Shown piece by piece: positions 288-34,437 of a stretch of 41,584 nucleotides of DNA. Both the position numbers and the translations under genes were made by a program. How positions within the stretch are numbered: position 1 is the stretch's first letter; each line of letters starts with the position of its first letter. Under the pieces are notes generated by a model. That model made no database searches and was not told the DNA's origin. It saw nothing but the letters and a program-made list of their open reading frames with translations. Origin of the DNA: a virus. The stretch is from positions 1 through 41,584 of IMG/VR virus record IMGVR_UViG_3300027806_000070, one strand, 5' to 3'.

Positions 288-290
288 TGC

Positions 291-20215: not shown

Positions 20216-20660
20216 TTTCTGGGGTGTGATTTATGCCACATCCTATGGATGTAGTAAAAGTGCAGGTCAGAAGGCATATACGAATCCTAGCAAACTTATG
20301 TAGGTAGAGATATACACACACGCTCGCCCCCATTTTATAAACCCTGGGGTCTCGCTCATCCACTTGCAAGCGCTTTTGCATGCAATCACTCATCACTTTG
20401 CAAGGCATGGCATGCCAAGCATTGGCAGGAGCAAGCACTAGCGGGCGCGGTGGCACTTACTCCCTCATCCCTAGTCGCGCCCCGTGCAGACATAGCCCCG
20501 CGCCCCGCATGGTCTGCCCTGCCCGCGTTTAGACACCTGCCCCGCGGACATCGCCCCGCCCCGCATCCTCCGGCAGGTAGTTGAAAGTTCAACAACCTAA
20601 CCCTCTTCCCGTCTCACATATTGAGATGCCGTCTCATAAAAAAATCTTTGCGACTTGCCC
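20216..20660. other. Non-coding control region between late and early blocks
   Basis: No convincing gene lies between the TerL start and 20780. The left part (20220-20340) is AT-richer, the part from about 20440 to 20580 is very GC-rich with repeated CCCCGC units. Visible palindromes are TGGCATGCCA (20408-20417) and GTTGAA-AG-TTCAAC (20580-20593). One GTTTAGAC site is at 20527-20534. A second inverted repeat pairs TCTCA with TGAGA near 20617-20632. The divergent arrangement makes it the likely site of late/early switching, and possibly of replication initiation. I could not find a convincing sigma-70-type promoter facing TerL. Confidence 0.55.
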
Positions 20661-20668
20661 GTTTAGAC

Positions 20669-20697
20669 TTGACACCTACCGGCACGAGGACAAAGAT
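20669..20697 (+). promoter_or_regulatory. Early promoter for the rightward operon
   Basis: TTGACA (20669-20674) is a perfect -35 box; 17 bases later AAAGAT (20692-20697) is a weak -10 that keeps the key A at position 2 and T at position 6. A GTTTAGAC copy (20661-20668) lies directly against the -35 box, which is a natural place for a regulator. Transcription would start near 20704, about 75 bases before the first early ATG. Confidence 0.55.
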
Positions 20698-20722
20698 GCG
20701 CACTACAACTGAATAATGACGA

Positions 20723-20739
20723 GGTGGCAAAGCGCCACC
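20723..20739 (+). other. Leader hairpin GGTGGC/GCCACC
   Basis: GGTGGC (20723-20728), loop AAAGC, GCCACC (20734-20739): a perfect 6-bp GC-rich stem in the untranslated leader between the predicted promoter and the first gene. There is no T-tract. It could stabilise the early mRNA or limit ribosome access. Confidence 0.5.
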
Positions 20740-20747
20740 CGTAGCGA

Positions 20748-20765
20748 TTAGAACAAGTGTTCTAA
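20748..20765. promoter_or_regulatory. Perfect palindrome resembling a LexA (SOS) box
   Basis: TTAGAACA-AG-TGTTCTAA has 8-base arms with a 2-base centre. Its core, GAAC-N4-GTTC, is the same pattern as the LexA operator of Gram-positive bacteria and actinobacteria. It lies 15 bases before the first early ATG, so a bound repressor would block elongation or initiation into the operon. Binding by host LexA is inference; a phage regulator is the alternative. Confidence 0.5.
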
Positions 20766-20779
20766 GACTGGAGCAAGAC

Positions 20780-21325
20780 ATGAATCGCGAGACATGGCTG
20801 AAAGAGTTGGCGAATCGCGCCATTCCATTCATAACCAATCACTACCCCTATGCCGAAGAGGAGGTGTCCGTTCGCCTCTCCTGCGGATTCCCTGCAACTC
20901 AAGGCAAGCGCAAGAAGGTAACCGCCTCCCTCATCCCTCCGACTAACTCCGATGAGTTCAATGCCGAGGTTTTTGTCACTCCGGAAATCGACACCGATGA
21001 AGAGGTGGCGCGTGCCGTGCTCCCTCTCCTCGTAGCCGTAGTGCTTGGCGATTACAAGCAAGGAGCCACCTATCGCCAAGCAATCCAAGCGCTCCGTCTA
21101 AACGCGGAGGGCTTGCCATCATGGGCTGAGAACATCCTCAGCCAACTCCCCGCCTACCCTCACGCCTCCGTCACCCTGCCGGAGGTCAAGAAGCAGACCA
21201 CCCGCCTCTTGAAGGTGGCGTGCCTCCCCTGCAACTATATCGCCCGAGTCTCGCGTGCCACGCTTGACCGTTTAGGCACACCCGTGTGCCCTGCATGCCA
21301 TCAATCATTCACCGAAGCCAACTAA
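20780..21325 (+). CDS. SprT-like protein with lost metallopeptidase motif (181 residues)
   Basis: ATG 20780 after the leader AGACTGGAG. The architecture is that of the SprT-like proteins common in actinophages: N-terminal helix (RETWLKELANRAIPFI), VRLSCGFP strand, a central helix, then RLLKVACLPCNYIARVSRA and a C-terminal zinc ribbon with Cys148, Cys151, Cys170 and Cys173. The central helix should carry HExxH; here residues 77-90 read ARAVLPLLVAVVLG with no His or Glu in place. The zinc ribbon is intact. It is therefore probably not a protease; a DNA- or protein-binding role at the early promoter stage is possible. It is first in the early operon, which suggests regulation or host take-over. 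Confidence 0.7.
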   Translation: MNRETWLKELANRAIPFITNHYPYAEEEVSVRLSCGFPATQGKRKKVTASLIPPTNSDEFNAEVFVTPEIDTDEEVARAVLPLLVAVVLGDYKQGATYRQAIQALRLNAEGLPSWAENILSQLPAYPHASVTLPEVKKQTTRLLKVACLPCNYIARVSRATLDRLGTPVCPACHQSFTEAN

Positions 21326-21352
21326 CCGTTTAGACGATAGGAGACTGGAACC

Positions 21353-22078
21353 ATGGAAACTTTCGGAATCGAACTAGAGGTGAGCGACATATCCATCCCG
21401 AGCGCTCAATCCCTCATCAACCGCGCCGGCATCGCTTGGCAGGTCAAGCGTGACGGAACGCATCATGTCAGCGCCGAGGCAGTTAGCCCGATTCTGACCG
21501 CCGAGCGTTTAGACGAGGCAAAGACCGCAACCCGTGCACTCCGCATCGGTGGCGCAACCGTGAACAAGCAGTGCGGACTCCATGTCCATCTTGGCGCGGA
21601 TGAATACGGGCTGGAGGGCTTGGCGAATCTCGCGTGGAACTGGAACCTCGCGCATGCCACCATCGGCGCGCTCGTTGCTCCATCCCGTCTAAACAATCGG
21701 TTTTGCGTGCCGGTGGCGCTTGCGGAACTCGATTCTCAAGTGGAGACAATCCGCAACGGCTCCATCCGCAACATCGGACTAAATGGGCGCTATCGCTCCC
21801 TCAACTTCGATGCGTACCGTAACCACGGAACCGTGGAGGTACGCCTACATCACGGAACTCTCAACGGCTCCAAGGTCAAAGCATGGGCAGAGTTCGTCAG
21901 CGCCATCGCGAACTACTCCAAGGCGGGAAGCCGTTTAGACCACTCCAACGAGTGGAGCCAACCCGTGGACAGAGTTGCCAAGGTAGGCGAACTCCTCGAC
22001 CTTCTCACCCTTGTGGGAACCCTCAGCGAGGCAACCAACCGTTACCTCAAAGGCAGAGCGGACGAACTAGCCCGCTAA
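21353..22078 (+). CDS. Amidoligase-family enzyme (241 residues)
   Basis: ATG 21353 after AGACTGGA. It has FGIELE (4-9), CGLHVHLG (74-81), then NGRYRSLN (144-151) and HGTVEVRLHHGTLN (158-171) and a WAEFV helix. These are the signature elements of the Amidoligase_2 (COOH-NH2 ligase) family, related to glutamine synthetase-like and ATP-grasp-type ligases that join an amine to a carboxylate with ATP. The acidic residues E7 and E9 and the His/Arg cluster are the expected metal and nucleotide ligands. A stand-alone class II glutaminase at 22770 can supply ammonia or an amine. In published genome surveys such pairs are linked to peptide or cell-wall modification. The substrate here is unknown. It contains three GTTTAGAC-type sites inside the gene. 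Confidence 0.85.
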   Translation: METFGIELEVSDISIPSAQSLINRAGIAWQVKRDGTHHVSAEAVSPILTAERLDEAKTATRALRIGGATVNKQCGLHVHLGADEYGLEGLANLAWNWNLAHATIGALVAPSRLNNRFCVPVALAELDSQVETIRNGSIRNIGLNGRYRSLNFDAYRNHGTVEVRLHHGTLNGSKVKAWAEFVSAIANYSKAGSRLDHSNEWSQPVDRVAKVGELLDLLTLVGTLSEATNRYLKGRADELAR

Positions 22079-22087
22079 CCGCGGGCA

Positions 22088-22150
22088 GGGGTGGACAGCG
22101 TAGGCGGGTGCAACTCCCGCCCACCCCACGAACGCGACGGAAAGACCGTC
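22088..22150 (+). ncRNA. tRNA-like minihelix (acceptor plus T-arm) followed by a hairpin
   Basis: GGGGTGG (22088-22094) pairs with CCACCCC (22121-22127), 7 bp; inside, immediately adjacent, GCGGG (22104-22108) pairs with CCCGC (22116-22120), 5 bp, closing a 7-base loop TGCAACT. A 7-bp acceptor stem stacked on a 5-bp arm with a 7-base loop is the geometry of a tRNA top half; the loop keeps the C and A of TTCRA. D and anticodon arms are replaced by 9 bases (22095-22103). No CCA follows (ACGAA instead). A second hairpin GACGG/CCGTC is at 22136-22150. There is no T-tract, so it is not a simple terminator. Whether it is processed is unknown. Confidence 0.5.
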
Positions 22151-22175
22151 AGCGTTTAGACAAGACTGGAGAATC

Positions 22176-22340
22176 ATGAAAGCGCAAGAGCAACTCACCG
22201 CATGGTTATGGAAAGTCGGAACCCTCGACATTTCTGCCAATCATCAAGACCTCCTAGACCTTCTCCTCAGGTATAGCGCGGAACTCAATTACATCACGCA
22301 GAAGGCAGAGCACGAGCACGCAACCGGAAGGAATGTCTAA
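22176..22340 (+). CDS. Small helical protein (54 residues)
   Basis: ATG 22176 with the leader AGACTGGAG 5 bases upstream, stop TAA 22338-22340 inside a GTCTAAAC site, two bases before the next ATG. The protein (MKAQEQLTAWLWKVGTLDIS...) is predicted helical, with Leu-rich DLLDLLLRY and a His/Glu tail. No family is recognised. It lies between the amidoligase and small zinc proteins in the early operon, so an accessory or host-directed role is likely. Confidence 0.6.
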   Translation: MKAQEQLTAWLWKVGTLDISANHQDLLDLLLRYSAELNYITQKAEHEHATGRNV

Positions 22341-22342
22341 AC

Positions 22343-22492
22343 ATGAAACTGACCAAGCGCGGGCGCATCGTTGTCGCCCTCCTCACCACGCTCGCCATTA
22401 CTGGCATCTACTACATCGCCACCCATATCTGGTGGGATGGCTCCGGATGGTGCTTCGGTACCGTCATCGAATGCCTGGACGGTAACTCATGA
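22343..22492 (+). CDS. Single-pass membrane protein (49 residues)
   Basis: ATG 22343 directly follows a GTCTAAAC site containing the previous stop. A positive N-terminus (MKLTKRGR) precedes a hydrophobic helix (IVVALLTTLAITGIYYIA), then a Trp-rich outer segment with two Cys (HIWWDGSGWCFGTVIECLDG). The topology is N-in by the positive-inside rule, with a possible disulphide outside. The next gene overlaps by 4 bases (ATGA). A role at the membrane during infection, such as exclusion of other phages, is only a guess. Confidence 0.6.
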   Translation: MKLTKRGRIVVALLTTLAITGIYYIATHIWWDGSGWCFGTVIECLDGNS

Positions 22493-22563
22493 GCGACCGT
22501 CTAAACGAAAGAGTCATCTGCGGGGATTGCCTGCGCCCTTCATGCAAAGGATGTGAACGATGA
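22489..22563 (+). CDS. Tiny zinc-knuckle-like protein (24 residues)
   Basis: ATG 22489 overlaps the previous stop (ATGA) and TGA 22561-22563 overlaps the next ATG. The sequence MSDRLNERVICGDCLRPSCK then GCER has four Cys in a C-x2-C-x4-C-x2-C spacing, which can hold one zinc ion. It contains GTCTAAAC read as Arg-Leu-Asn. This is far below normal gene-calling length, but the two ATGA overlaps support translation. Confidence 0.5.
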   Translation: MSDRLNERVICGDCLRPSCKGCER

Positions 22564-22715
22564 GCACGATGTGTTTACACTGCCAAGAGGAGAAGGATAT
22601 TTCTATCGTCTGGCTAAAGAAGAAGAACACCCGCGGGCGAGAGTACTTCCGGCGGGATGCGATGTGCCAAGAGTGTCGGGAAGAAATCCGGCGCGATGGT
22701 GGAGATGTGCGATGA
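22560..22715 (+). CDS. Small zinc-ribbon protein (51 residues)
   Basis: ATG 22560, ATGA overlap with the upstream gene. MSTMCLHCQEEKD at the start and AMCQECREEIRRDGG near the end give a C-x2-C ... C-x2-C ribbon with about 29 residues between the pairs; the middle is basic (VWLKKKNTRGREYFRRD). Similar small ribbon proteins are often encoded by actinophages and may bind nucleic acid or RNA polymerase. The spacing of the knuckles, not a database hit, is the evidence. Confidence 0.6.
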   Translation: MSTMCLHCQEEKDISIVWLKKKNTRGREYFRRDAMCQECREEIRRDGGDVR

Positions 22716-22721
22716 GCACAG

Positions 22722-22730
22722 TGCTATACT
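22722..22730 (+). promoter_or_regulatory. Candidate extended -10 promoter before the glutaminase gene
   Basis: TGC-TATACT (22722-22730) matches the extended -10 pattern TGN-TATAAT with one base changed; there is no recognisable -35 box. The start site would be near 22737, leaving a short leader with AGACTGGAG before ATG 22770. Confidence 0.4.
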
Positions 22731-22769
22731 CAGCCCCTCAACAACCCGACAGACTGGAGACTAACTAAC

Positions 22770-23558
22770 ATGTGTGGAATCGCAGGCTATTGCCTCAGCA
22801 CTCAGCAACATCAGACCGCCGAGATTGCAGACCTTGCAGGTCAGATGCTTCTCGACATCGAACACCGCGGACAACACGCGACCGGCTCAGCATGGATTGA
22901 CTCAGGCTCCGGCGGGCGGGTCATCCGCAAGGCACCTATCCCTGCCTCACAATATGTGCGCAGGGCAGGCGCTCACCTATGCAGGCGGGCACAAACCGCT
23001 ATCTTGCACACGCGATGGGCAACGCAAGGCACACCGCAGAACAACAACAACAACCACCCCATCCCTCGCGGGCGCATCGTGCTCACACACAACGGGCACA
23101 TCGCCAACGACAAGGACTTGTTTAGACAGTTACGGGTCAAGCGACACGGACTTGTTGACTCCGAGGCAGTGACCGCACTCCTCGCCTTCGGCAAAGACCA
23201 CCCGACCCAACTCCTCACCGAGGTGGAGGGCACCGCATCGCTGGCTTGGCTTGAACAGGACAAGCCCGACACCCTGCACCTTGCACGAGTCAACTCATCC
23301 CCACTCTGGATTGGTCAGACGACTGGTGGCTCACTTGTCTATGGCTCCACCGAGGAAACTATCGAACACGCTGGCATCATGCTAGACAGCGACCTCGCTT
23401 GGAAATACAGCGCCTCCGAGGGCGAGTACTTCAAGGTCAAGGCTGGCAAGATTGTCGAGTTCAACCGATTTACCCCGCGCAAGTCAACCAAGAGTTATCG
23501 CGGATGGTGGGAGTACGATGGATGGACAGACGAGGAGACGGAGCAACTTGCCATCTAA
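22770..23558 (+). CDS. Stand-alone class II glutamine amidotransferase (262 residues)
   Basis: ATG 22770 after AGACTGGAG. It begins MCGIAGY, so Cys2 becomes the N-terminal nucleophile after Met removal. The other signature elements follow in order: EHRGQHATG (31-39), LHTRWATQGTPQ (79-90), LTHNGHIAN (105-113) and VDSE (129-132). These are the glutamine-binding and oxyanion residues of the Ntn-hydrolase glutaminase domain of PurF, GlmS and asparagine synthetase. No synthetase, SIS or phosphoribosyltransferase domain is attached, so the ammonia must go to a separate partner. The amidoligase two to three genes upstream is the obvious one. The combined product is unknown. Confidence 0.88.
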   Translation: MCGIAGYCLSTQQHQTAEIADLAGQMLLDIEHRGQHATGSAWIDSGSGGRVIRKAPIPASQYVRRAGAHLCRRAQTAILHTRWATQGTPQNNNNNHPIPRGRIVLTHNGHIANDKDLFRQLRVKRHGLVDSEAVTALLAFGKDHPTQLLTEVEGTASLAWLEQDKPDTLHLARVNSSPLWIGQTTGGSLVYGSTEETIEHAGIMLDSDLAWKYSASEGEYFKVKAGKIVEFNRFTPRKSTKSYRGWWEYDGWTDEETEQLAI

Positions 23559-23574
23559 CCCACGCCACGCAGAC

Positions 23575-23609
23575 AGCCCCTCGCCAACAGGTGGGGGGCT
23601 TCTTCGTTT
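23575..23609 (+). terminator. Terminator after the glutaminase gene
   Basis: AGCCCC (23575-23580) pairs with GGGGCT (23595-23600); the enclosed CC/GG bases can extend the stem, and TTCTTCGTTT follows. It lies 16 bases after the stop codon. The T-tract is interrupted, so efficiency is uncertain. A GTTTAGAC copy begins within the tail. Confidence 0.6.
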
Positions 23610-23690
23610 AGACACAGTAGTACCGCGCCGCATGATTATTAGCCAGGTGTTTAGACAAGCCGCTGCAACCACGGTCTTCAGTGTTTAGAC
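23606..23690 (+). promoter_or_regulatory. Array of three GTTTAGAC sites in an intergenic region
   Basis: Sites at 23606-23613, 23649-23656 and 23683-23690, all in the same orientation, spaced 43 and 34 bases. They fill the gap between the terminator and an AT-rich tract (23690-23720) before the next promoter. This is the densest intergenic group in the window and looks like an operator array. Confidence 0.55.
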
Positions 23691-23723
23691 ACTAAAACTT
23701 TTTTATATTTTTTGGTTTCTTTC

Positions 23724-23752
23724 TTGACTTTTATCTGGCGCAGTGCCATCCT
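23724..23752 (+). promoter_or_regulatory. Promoter for the 23789-25805 gene group
   Basis: TTGACT (23724-23729) with a 17-base spacer and CATCCT (23747-23752). The -35 is strong, the -10 weak. An A/T-rich tract upstream (23690-23720) would act as an UP-like element. ATG 23789 follows with GAAAGGAAC. Confidence 0.5.
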
Positions 23753-23788
23753 CTGCATGTGGGAAATACTCACACAGAAAGGAACATC

Positions 23789-23956
23789 ATGACTGGAACA
23801 ATCCTCGCCCTTACCGCAGTCTCAGCAGTGTCGGTGGGCTTGCTTGTTTACACAACCATCCAACACTCGCGTCTGGAGCAGGCGTACAAAGAACTCCGCA
23901 AGGTGAACAAAATTCTGCAACAGCGCCTAGCCAACAGTGAGGAGCGCCCCTTCTAA
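23789..23956 (+). CDS. Small membrane-anchored coiled-coil protein (55 residues)
   Basis: ATG 23789, ribosome site AGAAAGGAACATC. An N-terminal hydrophobic helix (ILALTAVSAVSVGLLVYTTI) is followed by a charged helix with heptad Leu/Val spacing (LEQAYKELRKVNKILQQRLA). The stop overlaps the next ATG (TAATG). It resembles small phage membrane proteins of the Rz or holin-regulator type in layout, but it lies in the early operon. Function is not assigned. Confidence 0.65.
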   Translation: MTGTILALTAVSAVSVGLLVYTTIQHSRLEQAYKELRKVNKILQQRLANSEERPF

Positions 23957-24204
23957 TGAGCACAACCTACCAAGGCTGGAAGAACTACGAGACATGGAAT
24001 GTGGCGCTCTACATCAACAACGAGTACCCACTCTATCTATCGGCGACACTCTTCATGAAGGCATACAGTGGAGCCATGCCGTACCGCGATTGGGTCAAGG
24101 TTGCCGGACTGACCGACAGGAAAACGCCGGACGGTTGCAACTACATCAGCAAGCAGTTGTCCTATTCCGAACTCAACGAGATGATGAGGTGTCTAAACAC
24201 ATGA
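23956..24204 (+). CDS. NYETWNVAL-motif protein (82 residues)
   Basis: ATG 23956. It contains GWKNYETWNVALYINNE near the N-terminus, a motif I know from a widespread family of small phage and archaeal proteins (DUF7249-like) without known function. The rest is helical with several Tyr/Trp residues. The 3' end carries a GTCTAAAC site read as Cys-Leu-Asn, and the stop overlaps the next ATG by 4 bases. It is soluble and has no Cys pair. The family recognition is good; the function is unknown. Confidence 0.7.
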   Translation: MSTTYQGWKNYETWNVALYINNEYPLYLSATLFMKAYSGAMPYRDWVKVAGLTDRKTPDGCNYISKQLSYSELNEMMRCLNT

Positions 24205-24302
24205 GCAACTACATCCGCCAAGGCGAGCGCCTCGTGTGCTCTAGTTGTGAGCGTGACATCAGCGAAAGCCACAAGAAGCACTGCCCATTGGACTTATCAT
24301 GA
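24201..24302 (+). CDS. Tiny zinc-finger protein (33 residues)
   Basis: ATG 24201, ATGA overlap on both sides. MSNYIRQGERLVCSSCERDI then SESHKKHCPLDLS gives C-x2-C ... H-x3-H-x-C type ligands for one zinc. It follows a GTCTAAAC site by two bases. It is the first of four consecutive tiny Cys-rich genes with the same overlapping layout. Confidence 0.5.
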   Translation: MSNYIRQGERLVCSSCERDISESHKKHCPLDLS

Positions 24303-24397
24303 GGCTCTGCGAAATCTGCGAGTGCAACGAACCCCGCACATCAGTAAGCAAGTGGTGTGACGGATGCCGTGATGACTTCAAGGAAAGCGAACGATGA
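24299..24397 (+). CDS. Tiny Cys-rich protein (32 residues)
   Basis: ATG 24299, ATGA overlaps with both neighbours. MRLCEICECNEPRTSVSKWC followed by DGCRDD: C-x2-C-x1-C ... C-x2-C, a compact zinc-ribbon pattern. The C-terminus is acidic and basic mixed (DDFKESER). It is too short for routine annotation, but the chained overlaps make it credible. Confidence 0.5.
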   Translation: MRLCEICECNEPRTSVSKWCDGCRDDFKESER

Positions 24398-24546
24398 GGT
24401 GCGGTGTCTGCGGTGAACGGTACAGTAATCGCACACTGAGCAAGCACTTCACACAGTGCGAGGACGAAGGACTCGCGCCCACTATCAACGACCTAAAGAA
24501 GAGCATCGAAGAAGGGAAAGCGAATCATGAAATGCCCCATCTGTAA
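24394..24546 (+). CDS. Tiny zinc-finger protein (50 residues)
   Basis: ATG 24394. MRCGVCGERYSNRTLSKHFT followed by QCED gives C-x2-C ... H-x4-C ligands, a classical-looking C2HC finger. The C-terminal half is a short amphipathic helix (TINDLKKSIEEGK). A near-identical TINDIKKN helix is present in the next protein (24527-24670), so the two genes share a tail and probably arose by duplication. Confidence 0.55.
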   Translation: MRCGVCGERYSNRTLSKHFTQCEDEGLAPTINDLKKSIEEGKANHEMPHL

Positions 24547-24670
24547 CACCTACCCACACACCCCCATCCAAATCCAAAGGAAGGGGATGTGTCGGTGGTG
24601 TGAGCGACACACAGAACCAACCATCAACGACATCAAGAAGAACAGTGAGGAGAGTCAGTACCATGACTGA
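24527..24670 (+). CDS. Tiny zinc-ribbon protein (47 residues)
   Basis: ATG 24527 lies inside the end of the previous gene (20-base overlap). MKCPICNTYPHTPIQIQRKG then MCRWCERH: a C-x2-C ... C-x2-C ribbon, followed by EPTINDIKKNSEESQ, the helix shared with 24394-24546. The stop overlaps the start of the DUF3846-like gene. It probably binds zinc and a nucleic acid or protein partner. Confidence 0.55.
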   Translation: MKCPICNTYPHTPIQIQRKGMCRWCERHTEPTINDIKKNSEESQYHD

Positions 24671-25022
24671 AAGAGCCAAAGGAATCATCATCTACCCTGG
24701 CAGTACATGGGAGCACCGTGTGTTTACACAGTTGCAGGACTACCAGCAAGTAGTCGGAGGTCTGATTGAAGCGGTGCGCCTCTTCGACCACACCTATGAG
24801 AACGAGGTTGCCACCATCTATGTGAACGAGGAAGGCAGGCTCATCGACCTACCTATCAACGCCGTTGCGGGTGGGCTTTCATTCTTACTCAACGGGGAGG
24901 ACATTCTCTTCGGCAACGCCATCGTGATGGGTCCATCCGATGAGGAAGGGTACGACTTGGATGTGCCGGAGTGGATTGTCGAGTTCATCAGACATGTAGC
25001 GAAAGAGGTGCCTCGTGTTTAG
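24663..25022 (+). CDS. DUF3846-like protein (119 residues)
   Basis: I chose ATG 24663 (MTERAKGIIIYPG), which has the ribosome site GAGGAGAG; the longer upstream frame duplicates the 24527 gene in another frame. The sequence QVVGGLIEAVRLFD, then EVATIYVNEEGRLIDLPIN, then LFGNAIVMGPSDEEG matches the DUF3846 family found in phages, plasmids and actinobacteria. The role of that family is unknown. The stop TAG lies inside a GTTTAGAC site that is also the start region of the next gene. It is soluble and acidic. Confidence 0.8.
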   Translation: MTERAKGIIIYPGSTWEHRVFTQLQDYQQVVGGLIEAVRLFDHTYENEVATIYVNEEGRLIDLPINAVAGGLSFLLNGEDILFGNAIVMGPSDEEGYDLDVPEWIVEFIRHVAKEVPRV

Positions 25023-25458
25023 ACGGGTATTGATTTACGCTTTGGTAGTTGGTGCAACTTTAGCCATCGACAACCGATTCTTTGACAAGCCTAATGGAGC
25101 AAGCACCAGTCGATACATCGAACACCACCCCGTCGTCGGCACAGTGGTTGCTTACCACGAGAACGAGTACCAACGGTACGCAGTGGACATGCTCACACAG
25201 ATGGGGAAGTTGGAGCAGTGGTCTTGTTTACACGAACTCTGGACACGCGAATCCAACTGGCGACCCAAGGCATACAACAGAGCATCGGGTGCCTACGGTA
25301 TCGCCCAGTTCATGCCGGTCACATGGGACTTGGTGGGCTTCAAGCGCACAGACAACGGGTTCGTGCAGGTTGAAGCAGGGCTTGCATATATCCAGCGCAA
25401 GTACGGTGGCAACATCTGCAAGGCACTCGGAAGCAACCTATCGAGAGGGTGGTACTAA
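25015..25458 (+). CDS. Lytic transglycosylase-like protein with N-terminal anchor (147 residues)
   Basis: GTG 25015 overlaps the end of the DUF3846-like gene by 8 bases. Residues 4-18 form a hydrophobic segment (RVLIYALVVGATLAI), a signal peptide or anchor. The catalytic core follows: LHELWTRESNWRP with Glu79 as the probable acid, ASGAYGIAQFMPVTW (90-104), and a final AGLAYIQRKYGGNICKAL. This is the short transglycosylase/SLT-like domain frequent in actinobacteria and their phages, which cleaves the glycan strand of peptidoglycan. Being in the early operon rather than next to the endolysin, it may remodel the wall early or act in trans with lysis. Confidence 0.8.
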   Translation: MFRRVLIYALVVGATLAIDNRFFDKPNGASTSRYIEHHPVVGTVVAYHENEYQRYAVDMLTQMGKLEQWSCLHELWTRESNWRPKAYNRASGAYGIAQFMPVTWDLVGFKRTDNGFVQVEAGLAYIQRKYGGNICKALGSNLSRGWY

Positions 25459-25805
25459 TGAACATCAAGCCGGAGCATCACGAGATTGAGAAGCAGTGGG
25501 AGTCTAAGGGCTTGACCTACTACCAACTCCAGTATGAACCCGACTTGTTCGAGGGTGCATCGTGTAAGGGGATGGACACTAATCAGTTCTACCCCGAAGG
25601 CAGGCGAGAGCCAGTACAGCAACAGAGGTTCATCAGCATGCTGTGCCACCTATGCCCAGTGCGGGATGCGTGCATGGAATGGGGACTAGCCCACGAGAAG
25701 TACGGGATTTGGGGAGGCTTGACCGAAGAACAGCGTGTGCTTTATCGCAAGGCTATGAAATGGGGAGTCAACGATTTGACAGCAAGTGAGTTCTTGCCCC
25801 TATAA
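25458..25805 (+). CDS. WhiB-like iron-sulphur transcription factor (115 residues)
   Basis: I chose ATG 25458 (TAATG with the previous stop); a GTG at 25449 is an alternative. The four cysteines are Cys36 (in GASCKGMD), Cys63 and Cys66 (CHLC) and Cys72 (DACMEW), followed by KYGIWGGLTEEQR (81-93) with the GIWGG turn. This is the complete WhiB signature: a [4Fe-4S] cluster and a turn that contacts region 4 of the host primary sigma factor. WhiB proteins occur only in actinobacteria and their phages. In known phage examples they down-regulate host wbl genes or redirect transcription. It is last in the operon, before a strong terminator. Confidence 0.92.
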   Translation: MNIKPEHHEIEKQWESKGLTYYQLQYEPDLFEGASCKGMDTNQFYPEGRREPVQQQRFISMLCHLCPVRDACMEWGLAHEKYGIWGGLTEEQRVLYRKAMKWGVNDLTASEFLPL

Positions 25806-25811
25806 TAGGAC

Positions 25812-25852: not shown

Positions 25853-25857
25853 CTATT

Positions 25858-26055: not shown

Positions 26056-26588
26056 TGTCTAAACGCACTCTTCATCAACATGAAAATGTTTTCGGTGAAG
26101 TCGTCAAGCGTTCCGTCATTGTAGATAGCATGGTCAAACATATAGTTATCCATGGCAATCTCAGACTTGTGCCTGTTGACTGCGCTGTGGTTGTGCCTGT
26201 TTACACGAATGACTTTACCACCCCGTTGCTTGATAGCATCAGCCTCATTGGGGAATCGAACATCTGCAATCACCACATTCTCATCGGGCTTGATGTCCTT
26301 GAACGCCATGTCTATCCAGACATTCTCGCCGAACATCCTGCGCCCCACATCGGTGCCGAATACTTGCAACAACCTACGAATCTCAGGGTTCTGTTTAGCC
26401 ATGTCCCACCCGTAGTCCTCAACATAGTGAGCGACATGAGTGATGCTGTCTATCTTCGGGTTCAGGATGAGGATAGCCTCACGCATTGGGTCAGCAAAGG
26501 ACACGCGCCGGAAGCCGTAGTTTAGACATAGGGTTGATGCCATCGTGTCCTTACCGCTTCGTGCATATCCACTCAGTCCGATAATCAT
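26052..26588 (-). CDS. Deoxynucleoside monophosphate kinase (178 residues)
   Basis: ATG 26588. The P-loop GLSGYARSGKDT (4-15) is at the very N-terminus, followed by YGFRRVSFADPMREAIL, which is the dNMP-kinase pattern (an F-ADP-(K/R) segment after the P-loop). A later VVIADVRFPNEADAI segment holds the Walker B-like strand and R-PNE nucleotide contact. It phosphorylates dNMPs to dNDPs to supply DNA synthesis, using nucleotides from host DNA. The length is usual for short phage versions. It overlaps the sigma-like gene by 4 bases. Confidence 0.85.
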   Translation of the reverse strand: MIIGLSGYARSGKDTMASTLCLNYGFRRVSFADPMREAILILNPKIDSITHVAHYVEDYGWDMAKQNPEIRRLLQVFGTDVGRRMFGENVWIDMAFKDIKPDENVVIADVRFPNEADAIKQRGGKVIRVNRHNHSAVNRHKSEIAMDNYMFDHAIYNDGTLDDFTENIFMLMKSAFRQ

Positions 26589-27262
26589 TGGTTGTCCTGT
26601 TCTCTTATCTCTTGCCGTGCTTGCTCATTAGACATGCGCCTTCTTCTGCCATACCAGACCGGCGCTTCACCACCAAGCCTGTCCTGTAGGCGCACCAGCG
26701 CCCGCTTGACTCGCTTGCGTACCGCTTCTTCCGATGCACCTAGAGATTCAGCCAGCGCACCAAACTCCATACCCCCATTGGAATACCGCATCCGCAGCAG
26801 GTCACGGTCAGTGTCGTTTAGACGGTCAAGACCAGCCTGCACATCTGATAACAACGCCAGGCGATTGCCACCTTCACTTGGTTTAGACGAGTGAGTGACG
26901 AACTCGTTAGCCATATCGGGTGTATCTGTCCACCCCTCATGTGACCACACATCACGAAGCAACTCATGCAAGACTTCAAGCGTGTAGTAGAACGAGTCAG
27001 TGACGGGCACCCGCGCATGGCGACTGCGTTCCTTAGCCACATACTTCTGCGCCTCATTGAAGAAAGTCTTGCGCAGTTTATATTTCAGGCTGTCCTCTGC
27101 CTGCCATTGCTCCACCTTATGCCAGTGCTCTAGCGCCCATAGCGATAGGTGTTGGTACATATCATCAGTGGATACCAAGCCACGATGGATACGATTACTG
27201 CGGGTAGTTACCTGCCTCGCCACTCCGTAGATGGTTTCCCATACCTTGTCCTGCTCATCCAT
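26585..27262 (-). CDS. Sigma-70-family-like transcription factor (225 residues)
   Basis: ATG 27262 inside the overlap AATGGATGA with the upstream small gene. The C-terminal part LLSDVQAGLDRLNDTDRDLL then FGALAESLGASEEAVRKRVKRALVRLQDRL (about 141-196) is a sigma region-4 helix-turn-helix. Residues 20-90 contain a region-2-like helical stretch with DDMYQHLSLWALEHWHK, then KLRKTFFNEAQKYVAKE. The C-terminus is basic. It is probably an ECF-type phage sigma factor or an HTH regulator that redirects RNA polymerase to late promoters. This would fit the lack of a host-like promoter for the late operon. Two GTTTAGAC sites lie inside the gene. Confidence 0.75.
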   Translation of the reverse strand: MDEQDKVWETIYGVARQVTTRSNRIHRGLVSTDDMYQHLSLWALEHWHKVEQWQAEDSLKYKLRKTFFNEAQKYVAKERSRHARVPVTDSFYYTLEVLHELLRDVWSHEGWTDTPDMANEFVTHSSKPSEGGNRLALLSDVQAGLDRLNDTDRDLLRMRYSNGGMEFGALAESLGASEEAVRKRVKRALVRLQDRLGGEAPVWYGRRRRMSNEQARQEIREQDNQ

Positions 27263-27410
27263 TGGATTGCCTCACAATTTCAGCAGCATGCCAGTAAGTC
27301 TTGGCACGAACAGCGGTATCATTGAAGTTGTATTCGCTACTTATCATCGCGTAGGTTGCCTGTCTCTCTAGTTCTAAGGCTATCTGCTCACGCAGTTGTT
27401 GTTCATCCAT
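27255..27410 (-). CDS. Small protein with start/stop overlaps (51 residues)
   Basis: ATG 27410 to TGA 27255-27257. It begins MDEQQLREQIALELERQATY and ends EIVRQSNG; it is a charged helical protein. Its start overlaps the stop of the upstream nuclease-like gene and its stop overlaps the sigma-like gene, both through the same sequence CAATCCAATGGATGA. No family is recognised. It is short enough to be missed by a length cut-off. Confidence 0.6.
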   Translation of the reverse strand: MDEQQLREQIALELERQATYAMISSEYNFNDTAVRAKTYWHAAEIVRQSNG

Positions 27411-27807
27411 TGGATTGACCCTTATCATTCTTTAGTTTACGCATAGCCATCAGCAAATCATCAACGGTAATCAGCACGCCCTTGCTCTTGTTTGGTGGGA
27501 TGTCGCATGTAATGTCGCGCCCAAACTCCTTGACTGCGTAGAGCACATGGCTAGTGGGCACCATGAGTACGCCCTGCTCCAGCACGAACGCCCAGTAGTC
27601 AGCCTCAGTCACCATGATTCCTGACTTCTCCCACGACTCAGTTTTCAGGTACCAGCACTCCACCTCGACATAGATGTTGTTAGTGACCCACCATTTCCTA
27701 TCTCTCTTGACCTCTACCTTCTTACCATTGGTGAGTAGTTCCTCTACGAGTTGCTCACCCTTACGCCCATAACCAAAGTCCAAATCAAACGATGAGTTCT
27801 TAGCCAT
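27403..27807 (-). CDS. PD-(D/E)XK-like nuclease (134 residues)
   Basis: ATG 27807, two bases after the stop of the methyltransferase, with the GTTTAGAC site at 27808-27815 spanning the junction. FDLDFGYGRKGEQLVEELL is a helix with the conserved Glu of the fold; KKVEVKRDRKWW (29-40) has the E-x-K motif (E32, K34), and YVEVEC adds another strand. The later SGIMVTEADYWAFVL segment is typical of phage endonucleases of the Holliday-junction-resolvase type. It may process replication or recombination intermediates. The catalytic Asp is not clear. Confidence 0.65.
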   Translation of the reverse strand: MAKNSSFDLDFGYGRKGEQLVEELLTNGKKVEVKRDRKWWVTNNIYVEVECWYLKTESWEKSGIMVTEADYWAFVLEQGVLMVPTSHVLYAVKEFGRDITCDIPPNKSKGVLITVDDLLMAMRKLKNDKGQSNG

Positions 27808-27809
27808 GT

Positions 27810-28379
27810 TTAGACAAACTCCTTCTGTATCCAGACCTGCCAGCCGATTTCGATAACTTTGATTTTGTCCCGCGTGATATTGAAGAACGCATCTACTGCA
27901 GGGCGTGGCTCATAGAAGTTGCCCCTGCCCTCGCTCCAGTGGTAATCATCGAAGGCGATGATGCCACCCACATTGAGACAATCAAAGGCGTTCATGCCAT
28001 CACGCATCACGCCGAAGGCGGTGTGGTCGCCATCAATATAAACGAAGTCATAGGTCATGTTGTTGCTCTCAAAGAAACTATCGCTCGTCTCTCGGAACAC
28101 ATGAACATTCTCGTACTGCCTAATCTTGTCCGTGTAAACGGAGTACACATCCTCGAAGTCCATGGCGTGGTGTGAGTTCTCGTCACTACCCCTCCATGTA
28201 TCTACATCGGTGAGCGTGGCGTGTGCGTGGGTAAGTACATTCTCTAGCATCCACACAGAAGCATCGCCAGTGAAGGCACCTATCTGTAGGAACTGAACGG
28301 GCTTATCCTTGAACTGCATGAGGTGGCGCTCGAAGTTAGCCTGCGCACCAGTGGCTTGGAACCAGTTTGGGTACTGCAT
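27810..28379 (-). CDS. SAM-dependent methyltransferase, class I (189 residues)
   Basis: ATG 28379. The SAM-binding motif I is FLQIGAFTGDASVW (30-43); LTDVDTWRG (56-64) corresponds to the acidic ribose contact; DFVYIDGDHTAFGVMRDGMN (111-130) and GGIIAFDDYHW (138-148) are the later strands. This layout is the Methyltransf_24 family, which is mainly associated with O-methylation of small molecules and sugars, not with DNA. It could modify a glycan together with the glycosyltransferase at 29538. DNA specificity is not supported: no target-recognition domain or (D/N)PP(Y/F) motif is visible. Confidence 0.8.
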   Translation of the reverse strand: MQYPNWFQATGAQANFERHLMQFKDKPVQFLQIGAFTGDASVWMLENVLTHAHATLTDVDTWRGSDENSHHAMDFEDVYSVYTDKIRQYENVHVFRETSDSFFESNNMTYDFVYIDGDHTAFGVMRDGMNAFDCLNVGGIIAFDDYHWSEGRGNFYEPRPAVDAFFNITRDKIKVIEIGWQVWIQKEFV

Positions 28380-29000
28380 CTAAACACCCATCCGTTTCCG
28401 CAAGCCATCTGCTCCCTCGGATAGGTACACATCGTTTACATCAGCGCCGTCAGGCATAAAGACGGGGAACACATTGTCTAACTCACGGCTAATGTTCTTC
28501 GCCATCTCACGCCCTGCATTGTCCCCATCGCAGAAGAGCATAATCTTTTCCCAGTCTGCAAGGACACGGGAGTAAAAAGGTTTCCAGTTGTTAGCACCAG
28601 GCAAGCCAACGGCTGCGAACCCGACCTGCGTAGCGATGATGGTATCTATCTCGCCCTCGCAAATGACCAGCACATCGCTGTCTTTCTCCAGTGCACTGAT
28701 GTTGTAGATATGGGTACTAGCGCCAGGTCGGGACATGTACTTCGGTCCCGCATCTGCGTTTAGACTGCGGAATCTAATATCAATCACCCCCGATGGAGTC
28801 AAGTATGGGATGGATAACTTGCCGATGTATGGCTCGTGTCCAGTCTCAGGTTGCTTTACGAAGCCGAGGCGGAACATACGAGCCGTCTCCTCCGTTATAC
28901 CTCGACCCGCCAGATAAGGAAGCACCTCGTCTAGGTTTTGCTCGTAGTTCTCCGTGGCTTTCGCCAGTGATTCTCTCTGCGATTTTGAGAGCCTCGGCAT
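28380..29000 (-). CDS. DNA primase, TOPRIM half (206 residues)
   Basis: ATG 29000 with GGAGTCAACT ribosome site. The N-terminal part (LAGRGITEETARMFRLGF) is the DnaG-type catalytic-core helix; the TOPRIM motifs are VICEGEIDTI (112-121) with Glu115, and FCDGDNAGREMA (156-167) with Asp158 and Asp160. It makes RNA primers on single-stranded DNA. The zinc-binding half is the overlapping gene upstream in another frame (155-base overlap), so the two form one primase from separate chains. It probably works with the helicase at 30859. The split form is known in actinophages. Confidence 0.88.
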   Translation of the reverse strand: MPRLSKSQRESLAKATENYEQNLDEVLPYLAGRGITEETARMFRLGFVKQPETGHEPYIGKLSIPYLTPSGVIDIRFRSLNADAGPKYMSRPGASTHIYNISALEKDSDVLVICEGEIDTIIATQVGFAAVGLPGANNWKPFYSRVLADWEKIMLFCDGDNAGREMAKNISRELDNVFPVFMPDGADVNDVYLSEGADGLRKRMGV

Positions 29001-29223
29001 AGTTGACTCCTTCTCGTTTCATAATCAGTGAATAAACATCTCCAGCCATATCGCACGCAAAGCAGCGGAACCCACCCTTGTCTATGTTTAGACGGGCAGA
29101 CTTGATATGGTCATTGTGAAACATGCACCTGACCGACTGCCACCCACCGCGATTGCTTGGGATAACAAAGCCGTAGTGCTCCAGCACCCGCACCATGTCG
29201 TGCTTAGAGGTTTGGGAAGACAT
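28846..29223 (-). CDS. DNA primase, zinc-binding half (125 residues)
   Basis: ATG 29223. It has VRCMFHNDHIKSARLNIDKG with Cys33 and His36/His39, then GGFRCFACDMAGDVYSLIM with Cys54 and Cys57: the CHC2 zinc finger at the front of DnaG primases, which recognises template initiation sites. The last 40 residues (RAKPRRGASLSGG...) are Arg/Gly-rich and probably disordered; they overlap the start of the TOPRIM half. Separate ribosome sites support two chains rather than a frameshift. Confidence 0.85.
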   Translation of the reverse strand: MSSQTSKHDMVRVLEHYGFVIPSNRGGWQSVRCMFHNDHIKSARLNIDKGGFRCFACDMAGDVYSLIMKREGVNYAEALKIAERITGESHGELRAKPRRGASLSGGSRYNGGDGSYVPPRLRKAT

Positions 29224-29569
29224 TGCCTAACCTCTGCACCACATAAGCATCGCTGATAGGTCGGTTGCTTGCCTTGATAATCACCAGTGGGTTAGGCATG
29301 ACGGCAAGGTTCTTCTGAATCTTATAGTTCAGAGCCTCAATCTCAGCCTCACGAATCCACCCTGATAAATCTATGCGCCCGTCTCTGCGAGGAGCCTTGG
29401 CTTCCACGACATAAATGCCATTGTTGCCAGGCACGAACACATCACCCACATCGTTACGCCCTGCACGAGGCAGGCGCTGTGCGTTTAGACCGGACTCAAC
29501 GAACCAGTCGGCGAGTTCAATCTCGAAGGTTGCACCTCTACGCTTGTTCGCCATCTGCGGACTTGGCAT
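29204..29569 (-). CDS. PD-(D/E)XK endonuclease, resolvase-like (121 residues)
   Basis: ATG 29569 with GGAGAG six bases upstream. KRRGATFEIELADWFVESG gives the conserved Glu helix; GRNDVGDVFVPGNNGIYVVE then AKAPRRDGRIDLSGW holds the catalytic set Asp43, Glu56 and Lys58 (VVEAKA). This is the Holliday-junction-resolvase type of the family, adjacent to the primase. The role is probably to cut branched DNA before packaging. The start lies within the end of the glycosyltransferase gene (32-base overlap). Confidence 0.8.
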   Translation of the reverse strand: MPSPQMANKRRGATFEIELADWFVESGLNAQRLPRAGRNDVGDVFVPGNNGIYVVEAKAPRRDGRIDLSGWIREAEIEALNYKIQKNLAVMPNPLVIIKASNRPISDAYVVQRLGNVFPNL

Positions 29570-30272
29570 CGCGCTCTCTCCTTTCGGCTGCTTCGACTGC
29601 TGACCAGTACAGGTTGTAGTAGGCGTGGTCGAATGAAAAGCGCTTCATGTGCTTGACGAGAGCGCCAGTGTGTGCGTGAATAGGAATACCGGAGGCACGC
29701 ACCTTGCGGAAGAAGGCGATGTCCTCACCAATAAACTTCTCACCAGTCTCGTTGTTCTCGCCAAACCAGAAGTCGCCTGGGAACTTATCGTTTAGACGGT
29801 CAAGTACGCTCTTGTGCATGAGTACCAAGCCCATGCCTGCGTTGTCAATACGCACCAGTTGGTTGTGAGGGAGCGGGTGGAGGTACTTGATTTCATACTG
29901 AGTCTCACCCTCATTGAAGAGGACGGGCATCGGTTGCATCAGTGTGCCTTCGCTCTGCTTGGAGATGAAGTACACACCGCACACCACGGGACGAGCCAGC
30001 CTATCGGCTGAATCCCATAGTATCTCTAGCACTTCCTTCGTGAGCACGATGTCTGAGTCAACCCAGAGTGCCCAGTCGGTACCAACCTTGCCCCACATTT
30101 CGATGGCTGCTTGGCGTTGGCGTGCGATTTGATTACCCTGTACACGAATGGCGTTCGTGATACGAACCTCGCTGGTAATCATCGTGTAAACAAGACCCTC
30201 GGTAAACTTGCCGTCTGTGTTGCCGTTGTCGCACCAGATAACCGAGAGGCTTTCGTTTTTACCGTGAGCCAT
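29538..30272 (-). CDS. GT-A type glycosyltransferase (244 residues)
   Basis: ATG 30272. A GT-A fold core is visible: SLSVIWCDNG at the nucleotide-binding start, then TDWALWVDSDIVLTKE with the DxD motif Asp72-Ser73-Asp74, which coordinates the metal and nucleotide sugar. The middle GAGMGLVLMHKSVLDRL-type acceptor loop (here NAGMGLVLMHKSVLDRL) and the FIGEDIAFFRKVRASGIPIH segment are the usual features of actinophage glycosyltransferases. Targets could be host wall glycans, virion proteins or phage DNA. No nearby base-hydroxylase supports DNA as target. Confidence 0.8.
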   Translation of the reverse strand: MAHGKNESLSVIWCDNGNTDGKFTEGLVYTMITSEVRITNAIRVQGNQIARQRQAAIEMWGKVGTDWALWVDSDIVLTKEVLEILWDSADRLARPVVCGVYFISKQSEGTLMQPMPVLFNEGETQYEIKYLHPLPHNQLVRIDNAGMGLVLMHKSVLDRLNDKFPGDFWFGENNETGEKFIGEDIAFFRKVRASGIPIHAHTGALVKHMKRFSFDHAYYNLYWSAVEAAERRERDAKSADGEQA

Positions 30273-30639
30273 GGTCTAACTCCTTATCAAGAATCTTGTC
30301 TGACTGGTCAAGGATTTGCATAGAGGACTCGGCTACTTCCTTGAAGGTTTCAGCAATATATTTCAGTTGTTCTGCGAGGATGAACTTGTCTTCGGGTGTA
30401 CATCCGCAGTCGCTGAGTAGGTGGTCAGCCATTTGGCTAACATAATCAGCGAACTGGATTGACTCCAACCATACTTTGGAAGGGTCAAAGATTTTTGCTG
30501 TCGCTTCATCAATATGTTCCACAAGACTTGGAAGTTCATTCAGGATTGCTTCCTTCATCTCCGGTGGCATCGGTGCCTGCTCCATCGCTTGCCGAATCTC
30601 CTCTGGAGTAACCGACAGTGCCGACAGAAGCGAGTTCAT
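30259..30639 (-). CDS. Helical protein of unknown function (126 residues)
   Basis: I favour ATG 30639 (MNSLLSALSVTPEEIRQAM), because GAGGAG lies 5 bases upstream. ATG 30696 with GGAG is the alternative and adds a Lys/Arg-rich arm. The protein is acidic and helical, with two Cys (DCGC) in the middle and heptad-like C-terminal sequence (AESSMQILDQSDKILDKELD). No family is recognised. It overlaps the glycosyltransferase start by 14 bases and the gene upstream by about 100 bases. Confidence 0.5.
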   Translation of the reverse strand: MNSLLSALSVTPEEIRQAMEQAPMPPEMKEAILNELPSLVEHIDEATAKIFDPSKVWLESIQFADYVSQMADHLLSDCGCTPEDKFILAEQLKYIAETFKEVAESSMQILDQSDKILDKELDHGSR

Positions 30640-30862
30640 TCCACTCCTCTTCGGTAAGTTCTTGGAACTTCCCCGTTTCTTTCTCTTGCCAAACATAGGT
30701 TCTCCAACCAATAGTCCATAGGTAGTGCTTCGGTGTAAACGATAGGTGCTGTGTCATGTCCTCAACTAGAGGCTCTTTTGGTACTGCAATCTCTTTGTCG
30801 TCTTCTCTCGCAAGCATGTCGCCTGCGTTCTCAACTAATCTGAGTATCCATTTGTCGCTCAT
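30536..30862 (-). CDS. Small protein downstream of the helicase (108 residues)
   Basis: I use ATG 30862, which overlaps the helicase stop (ATGA); a longer frame upstream only repeats helicase sequence in another frame. The sequence begins MSDKWILRLVENAGDMLARE; the centre has HYLWTIGWRTYVWQEKETGK, a beta-rich segment, and the last 30 residues are Gly/Ser/Asp-rich. The overlap with the following gene falls in this tail. Unknown function; it is coupled to the helicase. Confidence 0.5.
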   Translation of the reverse strand: MSDKWILRLVENAGDMLAREDDKEIAVPKEPLVEDMTQHLSFTPKHYLWTIGWRTYVWQEKETGKFQELTEEEWNELASVGTVGYSRGDSASDGAGTDATGDEGSNPE

Positions 30863-31638
30863 GCTTGCATCAAATCCAAAATCTGCATACTTGCAGGCTC
30901 GTAGGACAACCACACAGGTGAAGCACCCGTGGCATCGGCTGGTCCATATCGGTTCTTTACAGCACACACACCCATAGATGCGATTTGTCCATGCACTGTG
31001 AGGATGAGAGATGGGGTCTGGGCTACCTTGCCATGCAACGAACTGCGTGGTGGGCATGGATTACCAGACACACCTTCGCTCGTATGATGGCAGACAACCA
31101 CCGCTGCACCCGTCTCTCGTGCCCACCACTTGAGTTCACGCATGAGGGTGCGTAGTCCGCCCCACTCATCTTGTCCGTCAAGGGTGACATCAACAGCGTT
31201 ATCCAGCACGATGAGTTCAACATCCCTGCCCAAGCGCTCACGCGCTGCAAGGATGGAATCCTCAACATCGCGGAGCGTTGGCGCTGAATCAAACTCCCAA
31301 TAGATGTGGTCAGAGGCGCGGAGCATTTGTCCTGCCCACTCTCTGTCCTGCTCCATCAAGGGTTCGACTTCTGACTGAGGCATGCCCGTAATCATCGCCA
31401 GCAAACGCAGACTCATCGTGTGAGAGTGCGTGTCTGCTGAGATATACAGCGTTGGAACGCGAGCGCGAACAGCAAGGGACAGCGCCAGGGTGGACTTACC
31501 AGCGCCTGGCGGTCCCGCAATCATGCTGACTTCGCCCCGTCTAAACGCTATCTGCTGCGCTGCAAAGGTGTGCCACACTGTTGGAAGCGTTGCACCGCCT
31601 GTCGAGGCAGTCTTGATAGCACGGGATAGTAGGCGCAT
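30859..31638 (-). CDS. DnaB/RecA-type replicative helicase (259 residues)
   Basis: ATG 31638. Walker A AGPPGAGKST (41-50), Walker B ELIVLDNAVD (141-150), then TGAAVVVCHHTSEGV, the DnaB/RecA motif-3 His region, and SSLHGKVAQTPSLIL. It is shorter than a full DnaB and lacks the N-terminal domain, so it resembles the RepA/gp4-like stand-alone ATPase of phages (AAA_25/DnaB_C). It is probably the fork helicase together with the split primase. A GTTTAGAC-type site lies inside, read as Phe-Arg-Arg. Confidence 0.82.
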   Translation of the reverse strand: MRLLSRAIKTASTGGATLPTVWHTFAAQQIAFRRGEVSMIAGPPGAGKSTLALSLAVRARVPTLYISADTHSHTMSLRLLAMITGMPQSEVEPLMEQDREWAGQMLRASDHIYWEFDSAPTLRDVEDSILAARERLGRDVELIVLDNAVDVTLDGQDEWGGLRTLMRELKWWARETGAAVVVCHHTSEGVSGNPCPPRSSLHGKVAQTPSLILTVHGQIASMGVCAVKNRYGPADATGASPVWLSYEPASMQILDLMQA

Positions 31639-33513: not shown

Positions 33514-33527
33514 TATGTCTAAACTAA

Positions 33528-34418: not shown

Positions 34419-34437
34419 TGCGGTATTCCCTTTGTGT

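Follow-up and report, generated by a model that had tools for sequence, protein, structure and literature searches.

A stretch of viral DNA of 41,584 nucleotides (positions 1 to 41,584 of IMG/VR record IMGVR_UViG_3300027806_000070; hereafter the window) carries dozens of dispersed copies of one octamer, GTTTAGAC, which raises the question of what these copies do and which protein reads them. We consider it likely that a SprT-derived zinc-ribbon protein, the product of the gene at 20780-21325, binds the octamer and is an autoregulated repressor with operators and stoperator-like sites. The reading, which comes from comparative sequence analysis, is built on observed features: the sites themselves, their conversion at orthologous positions, the co-occurrence of gene and motif, and the placement of sites in promoters and in front of the gene itself in cultured relatives.

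Counting 8-mers over the whole window gives 36 exact copies of GTTTAGAC, 26 of them on the plus and 10 on the minus strand, against 1.19 expected from an order-3 Markov model. An earlier reading made from the letters only (the sequence-only reading) had arrived by eye at the same counts and the same coordinates, with a similar expectation of about 1.3. GTTTAGAC is the top over-represented 8-mer of the window (z ~32); the best unrelated, non-overlapping 8-mer reaches z ~8, and no other octamer is comparable, the outcome on which that reading had staked its claim. Clustering at 20.5-31.6 kb is likewise borne out (26 of 36 copies in 20527-31546; binomial probability of at least 25, 9e-8), and the motif also extends beyond this interval. 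Position 6 alone is free: GTTTACAC, the sister form already noticed, has its reported 11 copies and GTTTATAC adds 6, both in excess, giving 17 variant copies besides the 36, and the remaining one-mismatch neighbours have 0-2 copies each. The same count returned no copy of GTTTAAAC in the window. The octamer had been called non-palindromic, which is right in that it is not a perfect palindrome; it is an imperfect one (GTTTAGAC / GTCTAAAC), and in relatives its place is taken by a perfect palindrome, GTTTAAAC. The statement that the flanks are not conserved is not quite right, as a pyrimidine precedes 31 of the 36 copies and a purine follows 29, a weak symmetric signal; the element is best written YGTTTA(G/C/T)ACR, a near-palindrome.

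Twelve of the 36 copies are intergenic or at gene edges, where non-coding DNA makes up 6% of the window (p ~1e-6, with hand-curated genes), and several stand immediately 5' of start codons. Inside genes, 8 copies run with and 16 against the direction of the gene, in keeping with the claim that orientation is independent of it. Copies occupy several reading frames as well as non-coding positions, and orthologous positions are converted in relatives (below); codon bias, as had been argued, is not the cause. With 36 copies where 1.2 are expected, an origin in chance, codon usage or composition has next to no probability.

Three motif types occur among relatives of the window: type A, GTTTAGAC, in a few close relatives only; type B, the perfect palindrome GTTTAAAC, which is commonest and has 20-57 copies per near-complete genome; and type C, (C/A)TTAAGAC with the core TGTCTTAAG. 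The relatives are ~70% identical in DNA, yet their sites lie at the same places as in the window, as the motif or its converted form, which was the second outcome that the sequence-only reading had asked of close relatives. Where window sites are aligned with B-type relatives, 393 of the 624 relatives' readings (63%) are exactly GTTTAAAC, whereas background 8-mers are identical in 12% and show any given single mismatch in ~1%. The wholesale conversion of dozens of positions argues for co-evolution with one recognising protein; to judge from these alignments, the sites are under selection and switch specificity together. A possible intermediate in such a switch is L127, which carries 24 copies of GTTTAGAC, 10 of GTTTAAAC and a ribbon-only protein of 57 residues. 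C-type relatives show 97 near-start cases for 498 sites, mostly in one orientation; their near-start sites (L143, 13237-13893; L110, 17279-17917) lie ~12 bp 5' of the start, beside the ribosome-binding site, and the promoter of their SprT-like gene has paired CTTAAGTC/CTTAAGAC elements 3' of the -10. The sites of the window, all exact 8-mer matches, are listed here with readings from the alignment of each site with relatives.

1576-1583, plus strand, GTTTAGAC
2484-2491, plus strand, GTTTAGAC
7475-7482, plus strand, GTTTAGAC
12971-12978, plus strand, GTTTAGAC
13415-13422, minus strand, GTTTAGAC
13889-13896, minus strand, GTTTAGAC
18270-18277, plus strand, GTTTAGAC
20527-20534, plus strand, GTTTAGAC, intergenic, in the gap between terminase and SprT-like genes; identical in 4/4 aligned relatives
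20661-20668, plus strand, GTTTAGAC, 111 bp 5' of the SprT-like gene; abuts TTGACA
21096-21103, minus strand, GTTTAGAC; GTTTAAAC in 4/9 aligned relatives
21328-21335, plus strand, GTTTAGAC, after the stop of 20780-21325 and before the ribosome-binding site of 21353
21507-21514, plus strand, GTTTAGAC; GTTTAAAC in 8/14 relatives
21687-21694, minus strand, GTTTAGAC; GTTTAAAC in 9/14 relatives
21933-21940, plus strand, GTTTAGAC
22154-22161, plus strand, GTTTAGAC, start codon 15 bp further on
22335-22342, minus strand, GTTTAGAC, abuts the ATG at 22343
22499-22506, minus strand, GTTTAGAC
23120-23127, plus strand, GTTTAGAC, within a glutamine amidotransferase gene; GTTTAAAC or GTTTAGAC in 50/50 aligned relatives
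23606-23613, plus strand, GTTTAGAC, intergenic array
23649-23656, plus strand, GTTTAGAC, intergenic array
23683-23690, plus strand, GTTTAGAC, intergenic array
24191-24198, minus strand, GTTTAGAC, 2 bp from the following start
25017-25024, plus strand, GTTTAGAC, stop/start overlap
26057-26064, minus strand, GTTTAGAC, 1 bp from the following start
26520-26527, plus strand, GTTTAGAC; in relatives GTTTAAAC (n=16) or ATTAAGAC (n=24)
26816-26823, plus strand, GTTTAGAC; GTTTAAAC in 61/92 relatives
26881-26888, plus strand, GTTTAGAC
27808-27815, plus strand, GTTTAGAC, gap between ribosome-binding site and ATG of gene 27403-27807
28758-28765, plus strand, GTTTAGAC; GTTTAAAC in 59/98 relatives
29086-29093, plus strand, GTTTAGAC; GTTTAAAC in 54/99 relatives
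29483-29490, plus strand, GTTTAGAC; GTTTAAAC in 55/99 relatives
29790-29797, plus strand, GTTTAGAC
31539-31546, minus strand, GTTTAGAC; likewise GTTTAGAC in 42/66 relatives
33517-33524, minus strand, GTTTAGAC; in relatives GTTTAAAC (n=22) or ATTAAGAC (n=10)
34436-34443, plus strand, GTTTAGAC
36415-36422, plus strand, GTTTAGAC, 9 bp 5' of the start of gene 34438-36405
1880-1887, minus strand, variant GTTTACAC
9035-9042, minus strand, variant GTTTACAC
11249-11256, plus strand, variant GTTTACAC; GTTTAAAC in 10/16 relatives
22573-22580, plus strand, variant GTTTACAC
23846-23853, plus strand, variant GTTTACAC
24722-24729, plus strand, variant GTTTACAC
25226-25233, plus strand, variant GTTTACAC; position not kept as a site in relatives
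26199-26206, plus strand, variant GTTTACAC
28132-28139, minus strand, variant GTTTACAC
30184-30191, minus strand, variant GTTTACAC
30733-30740, minus strand, variant GTTTACAC
4212-4219, plus strand, variant GTTTATAC
12734-12741, plus strand, variant GTTTATAC; GTTTAAAC in 7/17 relatives
13526-13533, minus strand, variant GTTTATAC, from the alignment with relatives
13568-13575, minus strand, variant GTTTATAC, from the alignment with relatives
14080-14087, plus strand, variant GTTTATAC, may be chance
15235-15242, minus strand, variant GTTTATAC, may be chance

The contact of the copy at 20661 with a -35 box and the array of three plus-strand copies at 23606-23690 had both been picked out in the sequence-only reading. 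The gene that travels with these sites lies near the first of them.

20780-21325, plus strand, gene for a SprT-like protein of 181 residues, the candidate trans-acting factor (family alignment; AlphaFold2 model with a predicted local distance difference test score, pLDDT, of 90.6)

In a gene-blind motif scan of viral contigs with two nearby GTTTAAAC words (120 contigs), a homologue of this gene was present in 23 of 41 motif-rich contigs as against 2 of 79 motif-poor ones, and several of the motif-rich, homologue-bearing phages are otherwise unrelated to the window. The reciprocal, motif-blind search used the protein as query and led to 17 cultured phage genomes, some of them partial; GTTTA(N)AC is enriched in 15 of these, from actinobacterial, proteobacterial and cyanobacterial hosts. 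Among the actinophages and phage 4A, excluding Coltrane, all 11 genomes have GTTTACAC as their top 8-mer (11-31 copies, 0.1-1.4 expected), and Venkman (34 copies), Pan1 (14), Mica (7) and Alexa (8) show enrichment of GTTTAAAC. Of 33 window genes, 20780-21325 alone is found in 10/10 motif-bearing genomes and 0/3 motif-free relatives; the ten had been picked because they carry the gene, so what counts as independent is the finding of the motif in each of them and the failure of every other window gene to behave likewise. The three motif-free relatives (Stella, Immanuel3 and ct2KA10) lack the gene, yet share most structural and replication genes with the window. Immanuel3 (L438, 24-60 and 45843-45880) and Stella (L442, 48-108 and 46240-46350) have clusters of palindromes (TGTGCATATGCACA; TGTGTACA) that recur at either end of the genome, an arrangement different from the scattered copies of the motif.

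KQxTR SprT-like genes with local GTTTACAC/GTTTAAAC enrichment also occur at bacterial loci (L622-L627 and L636, in Pseudarthrobacter, Arthrobacter, Streptomyces and Catellatospora), which are probably prophages. Scanning viral contigs for C-type words gave two with a SprT-like gene, both having the C-type ribbon of the window's own family, so that the C-type association rests on that family.

WhiB, SprT-like and sigma-like proteins had all been named as possible binders, and of these the SprT-like protein co-varies with the motif. It is distinctly improbable that the sites are read by some other protein of phage or host (WhiB, the sigma-like factor or a host nucleoid protein), with the SprT-like gene as a passenger: the window does encode WhiB and a sigma-like factor, but their homologues occur in the three motif-free relatives and are absent from most motif-bearing phages, the region-4 helix-turn-helix sequence of the sigma-like factor is identical in the A-type window and the B-type L084, and the same motif is found in phages whose hosts span phyla. 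None of the other window genes is common to all motif-bearing phages. A target of DNA methylation or restriction-modification would suit the sharp 8-bp specificity and has a PHROG match, 'DNA methyltransferase', at 27810-28379 in its favour. The product of that gene, however, is of the Pfam Methyltransf_24, O-methyltransferase-like type, the gene is not conserved among relatives and is missing in nearly all motif-bearing ones, and restriction normally selects against sites, which together make this explanation highly improbable.

The window protein has a C-terminal zinc ribbon (KKQTTRLLKVAC..C...R......CPAC) and lacks the catalytic HExxH, reading LPLLVAVV where homologues read VHELVHA. It matches 110 phage records at ~30% identity over 95% of its length, mostly annotated as SprT-like protease, from phages of Arthrobacter, Microbacterium, Streptomyces, Burkholderia, Achromobacter, Methylophilales, Pseudanabaena and Acinetobacter. 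Most homologues combine an N-terminal HExxH domain with a C-terminal ribbon K-Q-[T/S/G]-T-R-[L/M]-x-K-x-x-C...R...CPxC. In the family alignment HExxH is kept in no A- or B-type relative, and in many B-type relatives the protein is ~53-73 residues long and consists of the ribbon alone; C-type members retain HExxH and have the ribbon GRNTN. Ribbon type follows motif type ([T/S]TR in A and B; GRNTN in C, 24 of 26). AlphaFold models of SprT-like proteins have a pLDDT of ~90, and that of the intact homologue L320 matches SPRTN (6mdw, Z 8.7; 6mdx, 8.3) and yeast Wss1 (5xbv, 7.7) in the PDB. Coltrane has a ribbon without KQxTR and a genome without the motif; together with the ribbon-only relatives, this points to the ribbon as the part that tracks the DNA word. 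As the SprT-like domain is dead in the window and absent from many relatives, the sites can evidently be retained without protease activity.

Placement in cultured phages suggests what the sites are for. Sigma70-like promoters contain a site in 12 of 16 cases in Zeta1847, 10 of 12 in Cen1621 and 5 of 6 in DrManhattan, where 0.1-0.3 sites are expected; excesses are smaller in other AZ/EH phages, and sites in promoters are also seen in Elezi, Maureen, Emotion and Percival. In the Microbacterium phage Cen1621, whose sites have a biased orientation (24:4), ~10 occupy the 17 bp that separate -35 TTGCG from -10 TAyCAT, just 5' of start codons. These TTGCG-N17-TAyCAT promoters, a few bases 5' of ATG in both Cen1621 (L500) and Zeta1847, suggest many leaderless early transcripts. 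In AZ phages the site is 3' of the -10, where it would overlap the start point. Of 16 cultured phages, 12 have a site 8-45 bp 5' of the SprT-like gene itself (Fisher p 4e-13, uncorrected for relatedness); a site also stands in front of the gene in 3 of 4 Arthrobacter/Pseudarthrobacter genome loci, and inspection by eye of L116, L401 and L138 places one in the promoter spacer of the ribbon gene itself. Sites inside promoters of normal length and at start points are the signature of repression with autoregulation. Other sites, within structural operons and gene interiors, recall cluster A mycobacteriophage stoperators.

The same observations bear on the functions that had first been listed for the octamer, among which a regulator site is now strongly supported. 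A Chi-like recombination hotspot or a packaging, uptake or primase signal could draw on the dispersal of the sites and their mild 26:10 orientation bias (p=0.011). In most relatives, however, the orthologous sites are perfect palindromes and hence free of orientation, sites occupy promoter spacers in cultured relatives, and the motif changes with the type of ribbon protein; Chi, packaging and primase thus fit poorly, and the probability of such a signal is extremely small.

On the reading that we favour, the C-terminal ribbon (K-Q-[T/S/G]-T-R ... C ... R ... CPxC) would read GTTTA(N)AC, probably as a dimer. Bound at promoters, the protein would block initiation, these sites being its operators; at scattered intergenic, start-codon and intragenic sites it would obstruct elongation in a stoperator-like manner, mainly over the early and replication half of the genome. 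Binding, dimerization, repression, roadblock and timing are what we infer.

Several results weigh against this reading. None of the 53 window sites overlaps a recognisable sigma70 promoter, and B-type relatives likewise show no excess, which leaves the role in the window itself less certain. Most phages of the L320 clade lack a site near the gene, Mano carries just four copies of GTTTA(N)AC, including one that lies 17 bp 5' of the gene, and KQxTR homologues in Sulfuricella and Novosphingobium genomes have one nearby site only. A simple residue code in the ribbon for G (A-type) versus A (B-type) at position 6 was sought, and no residue separates the two. The PDB fold search with the model of the window protein gave no significant match. 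Neither a serine nor a tyrosine integrase was found in 16 family genomes including the window; the family therefore looks virulent, and the role of an immunity repressor is not simply transferable to the window. In integrase-less phages the protein may silence early genes late in infection or have another function.

Some of this would suit a ribbon protein that binds the sites for a purpose other than transcription, such as nucleoid-like organisation, control of replication, marking of the phage's own DNA or targeting of DNA-protein-crosslink proteolysis. Sites of the window family are mostly intragenic, on both strands and promoter-free, and SprT/SPRTN proteins are DNA-repair proteases, with the L320 N-terminal domain matching SPRTN. 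We nevertheless think such a role unlikely, as sites occur in the majority of promoters of cultured relatives, that of the gene itself among them, and the protease is dead or missing in A- and B-type phages that retain 20-57 sites.

The closest known arrangement is that of the cluster A mycobacteriophage repressor (L5/TipsytheTRex Rep), with its operators and stoperators (PMC9283540, PMC6550527). As there, 20-50 short sites are dispersed per genome over short intergenic gaps, gene starts and gene interiors and, in cultured phages, over promoters as well, and the sequence of the site changes along with its regulator; cluster A has ~20-36 sites, the window 36 plus 17 variants, its relatives 20-57 and cultured actinophages 11-31. 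By contrast, the cluster A site is 13 bp long and asymmetric, whereas this one is an 8-bp near-palindrome, perfect in the B type; its orientation in the window is independent of transcription (biased, as in cluster A, in Cen1621); the candidate reader is a SprT-like zinc ribbon rather than a double-helix-turn-helix Rep; and the window family has no integrase. As site form and regulator family both differ, we class the system as operator/stoperator-like in its working and not as a member of cluster A. No repressor appeared among the PHROG and Pfam matches of the window proteins scanned. The SprT-like, SPRTN and Wss1 metalloproteases are homologous, and intact members of the present family share their HExxH, SPRTN fold and C-terminal zinc-binding region; unlike them, the phage protein is paired with a sequence-specific dispersed site, and in the window lineage the protease has been inactivated or deleted and the ribbon left.

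Start-associated sequences of cluster K mycobacteriophages lie just upstream of start codons. Some copies here similarly occupy the gap between ribosome-binding site and start or lie just 5' of the ribosome-binding site, most clearly in C-type relatives and Venkman, but most are intragenic, the sequence differs and a binder is proposed. GntR/HutC operators have the form GT-N-TA-N-AC, which matches the half-site geometry GTNTANAC; (C/A)TTAAGAC, the word of type C, departs from this form, and the co-varying protein is a zinc ribbon. No GntR protein turned up in the scans of window proteins, none of which was aimed at GntR. The open-access literature, which leaves most subscription journals outside its coverage, yielded no paper naming the motif or SprT as a repressor.

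The window also encodes terminase, portal, a 2022-residue protein, a split primase, a DnaB-like helicase, a Cas4-like exonuclease and a Holliday junction resolvase; Rfam and tRNA scans of it were empty. By terminase (~50%), its nearest cultured relatives are Streptomyces phages of the Beephvirinae, which have no comparable dispersed octamer, and metagenomic relatives number in the hundreds. As in these Beephvirinae, the primase is divided between overlapping open reading frames at 28380-29000 and 28846-29223 (TOPRIM part and CHC2 zinc part), possibly a frameshift or a two-subunit primase. Diverged repeats, at 94% over 383 bases and at 86% over 601 bases, are common to the two ends of the window (1-1120 and 40390-41584); they cover Ala/Ser-rich, tail-fibre-like genes, and represent either duplicated fibre genes or imperfect terminal redundancy. 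One family member (L006/L124), a contig of 76,622 bases, is about twice the usual 40 kb and possibly a concatemer or chimeric assembly.

A wider reading, which we put forward tentatively and hold at a little less than even probability, is that the SprT-like zinc ribbon defines a new class of sequence-specific, autoregulated phage repressor with genome-wide operators in phages of Actinomycetota, Proteobacteria and Cyanobacteria. It would then be the immunity repressor that the temperate cluster AZ/EH and Zetavirus phages have seemed to lack, with the attached DNA-dependent protease as a possible self-cleaving induction switch, and virulent freshwater phages such as the window would have retained the ribbon alone, for the silencing of genes. 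For the temperate AZ/EH and Zetavirus phages, the pairing of motif and gene provides a candidate repressor gene together with its operators, so that the question becomes directly testable. At least 100 phage records annotated as SprT-like protease may, as the pairing suggests, be regulators that read DNA sequence, and GTTTAGAC, GTTTAAAC, GTTTACAC and CTTAAGAC, each with its matching ribbon, would form a natural series for learning how a zinc ribbon reads DNA.

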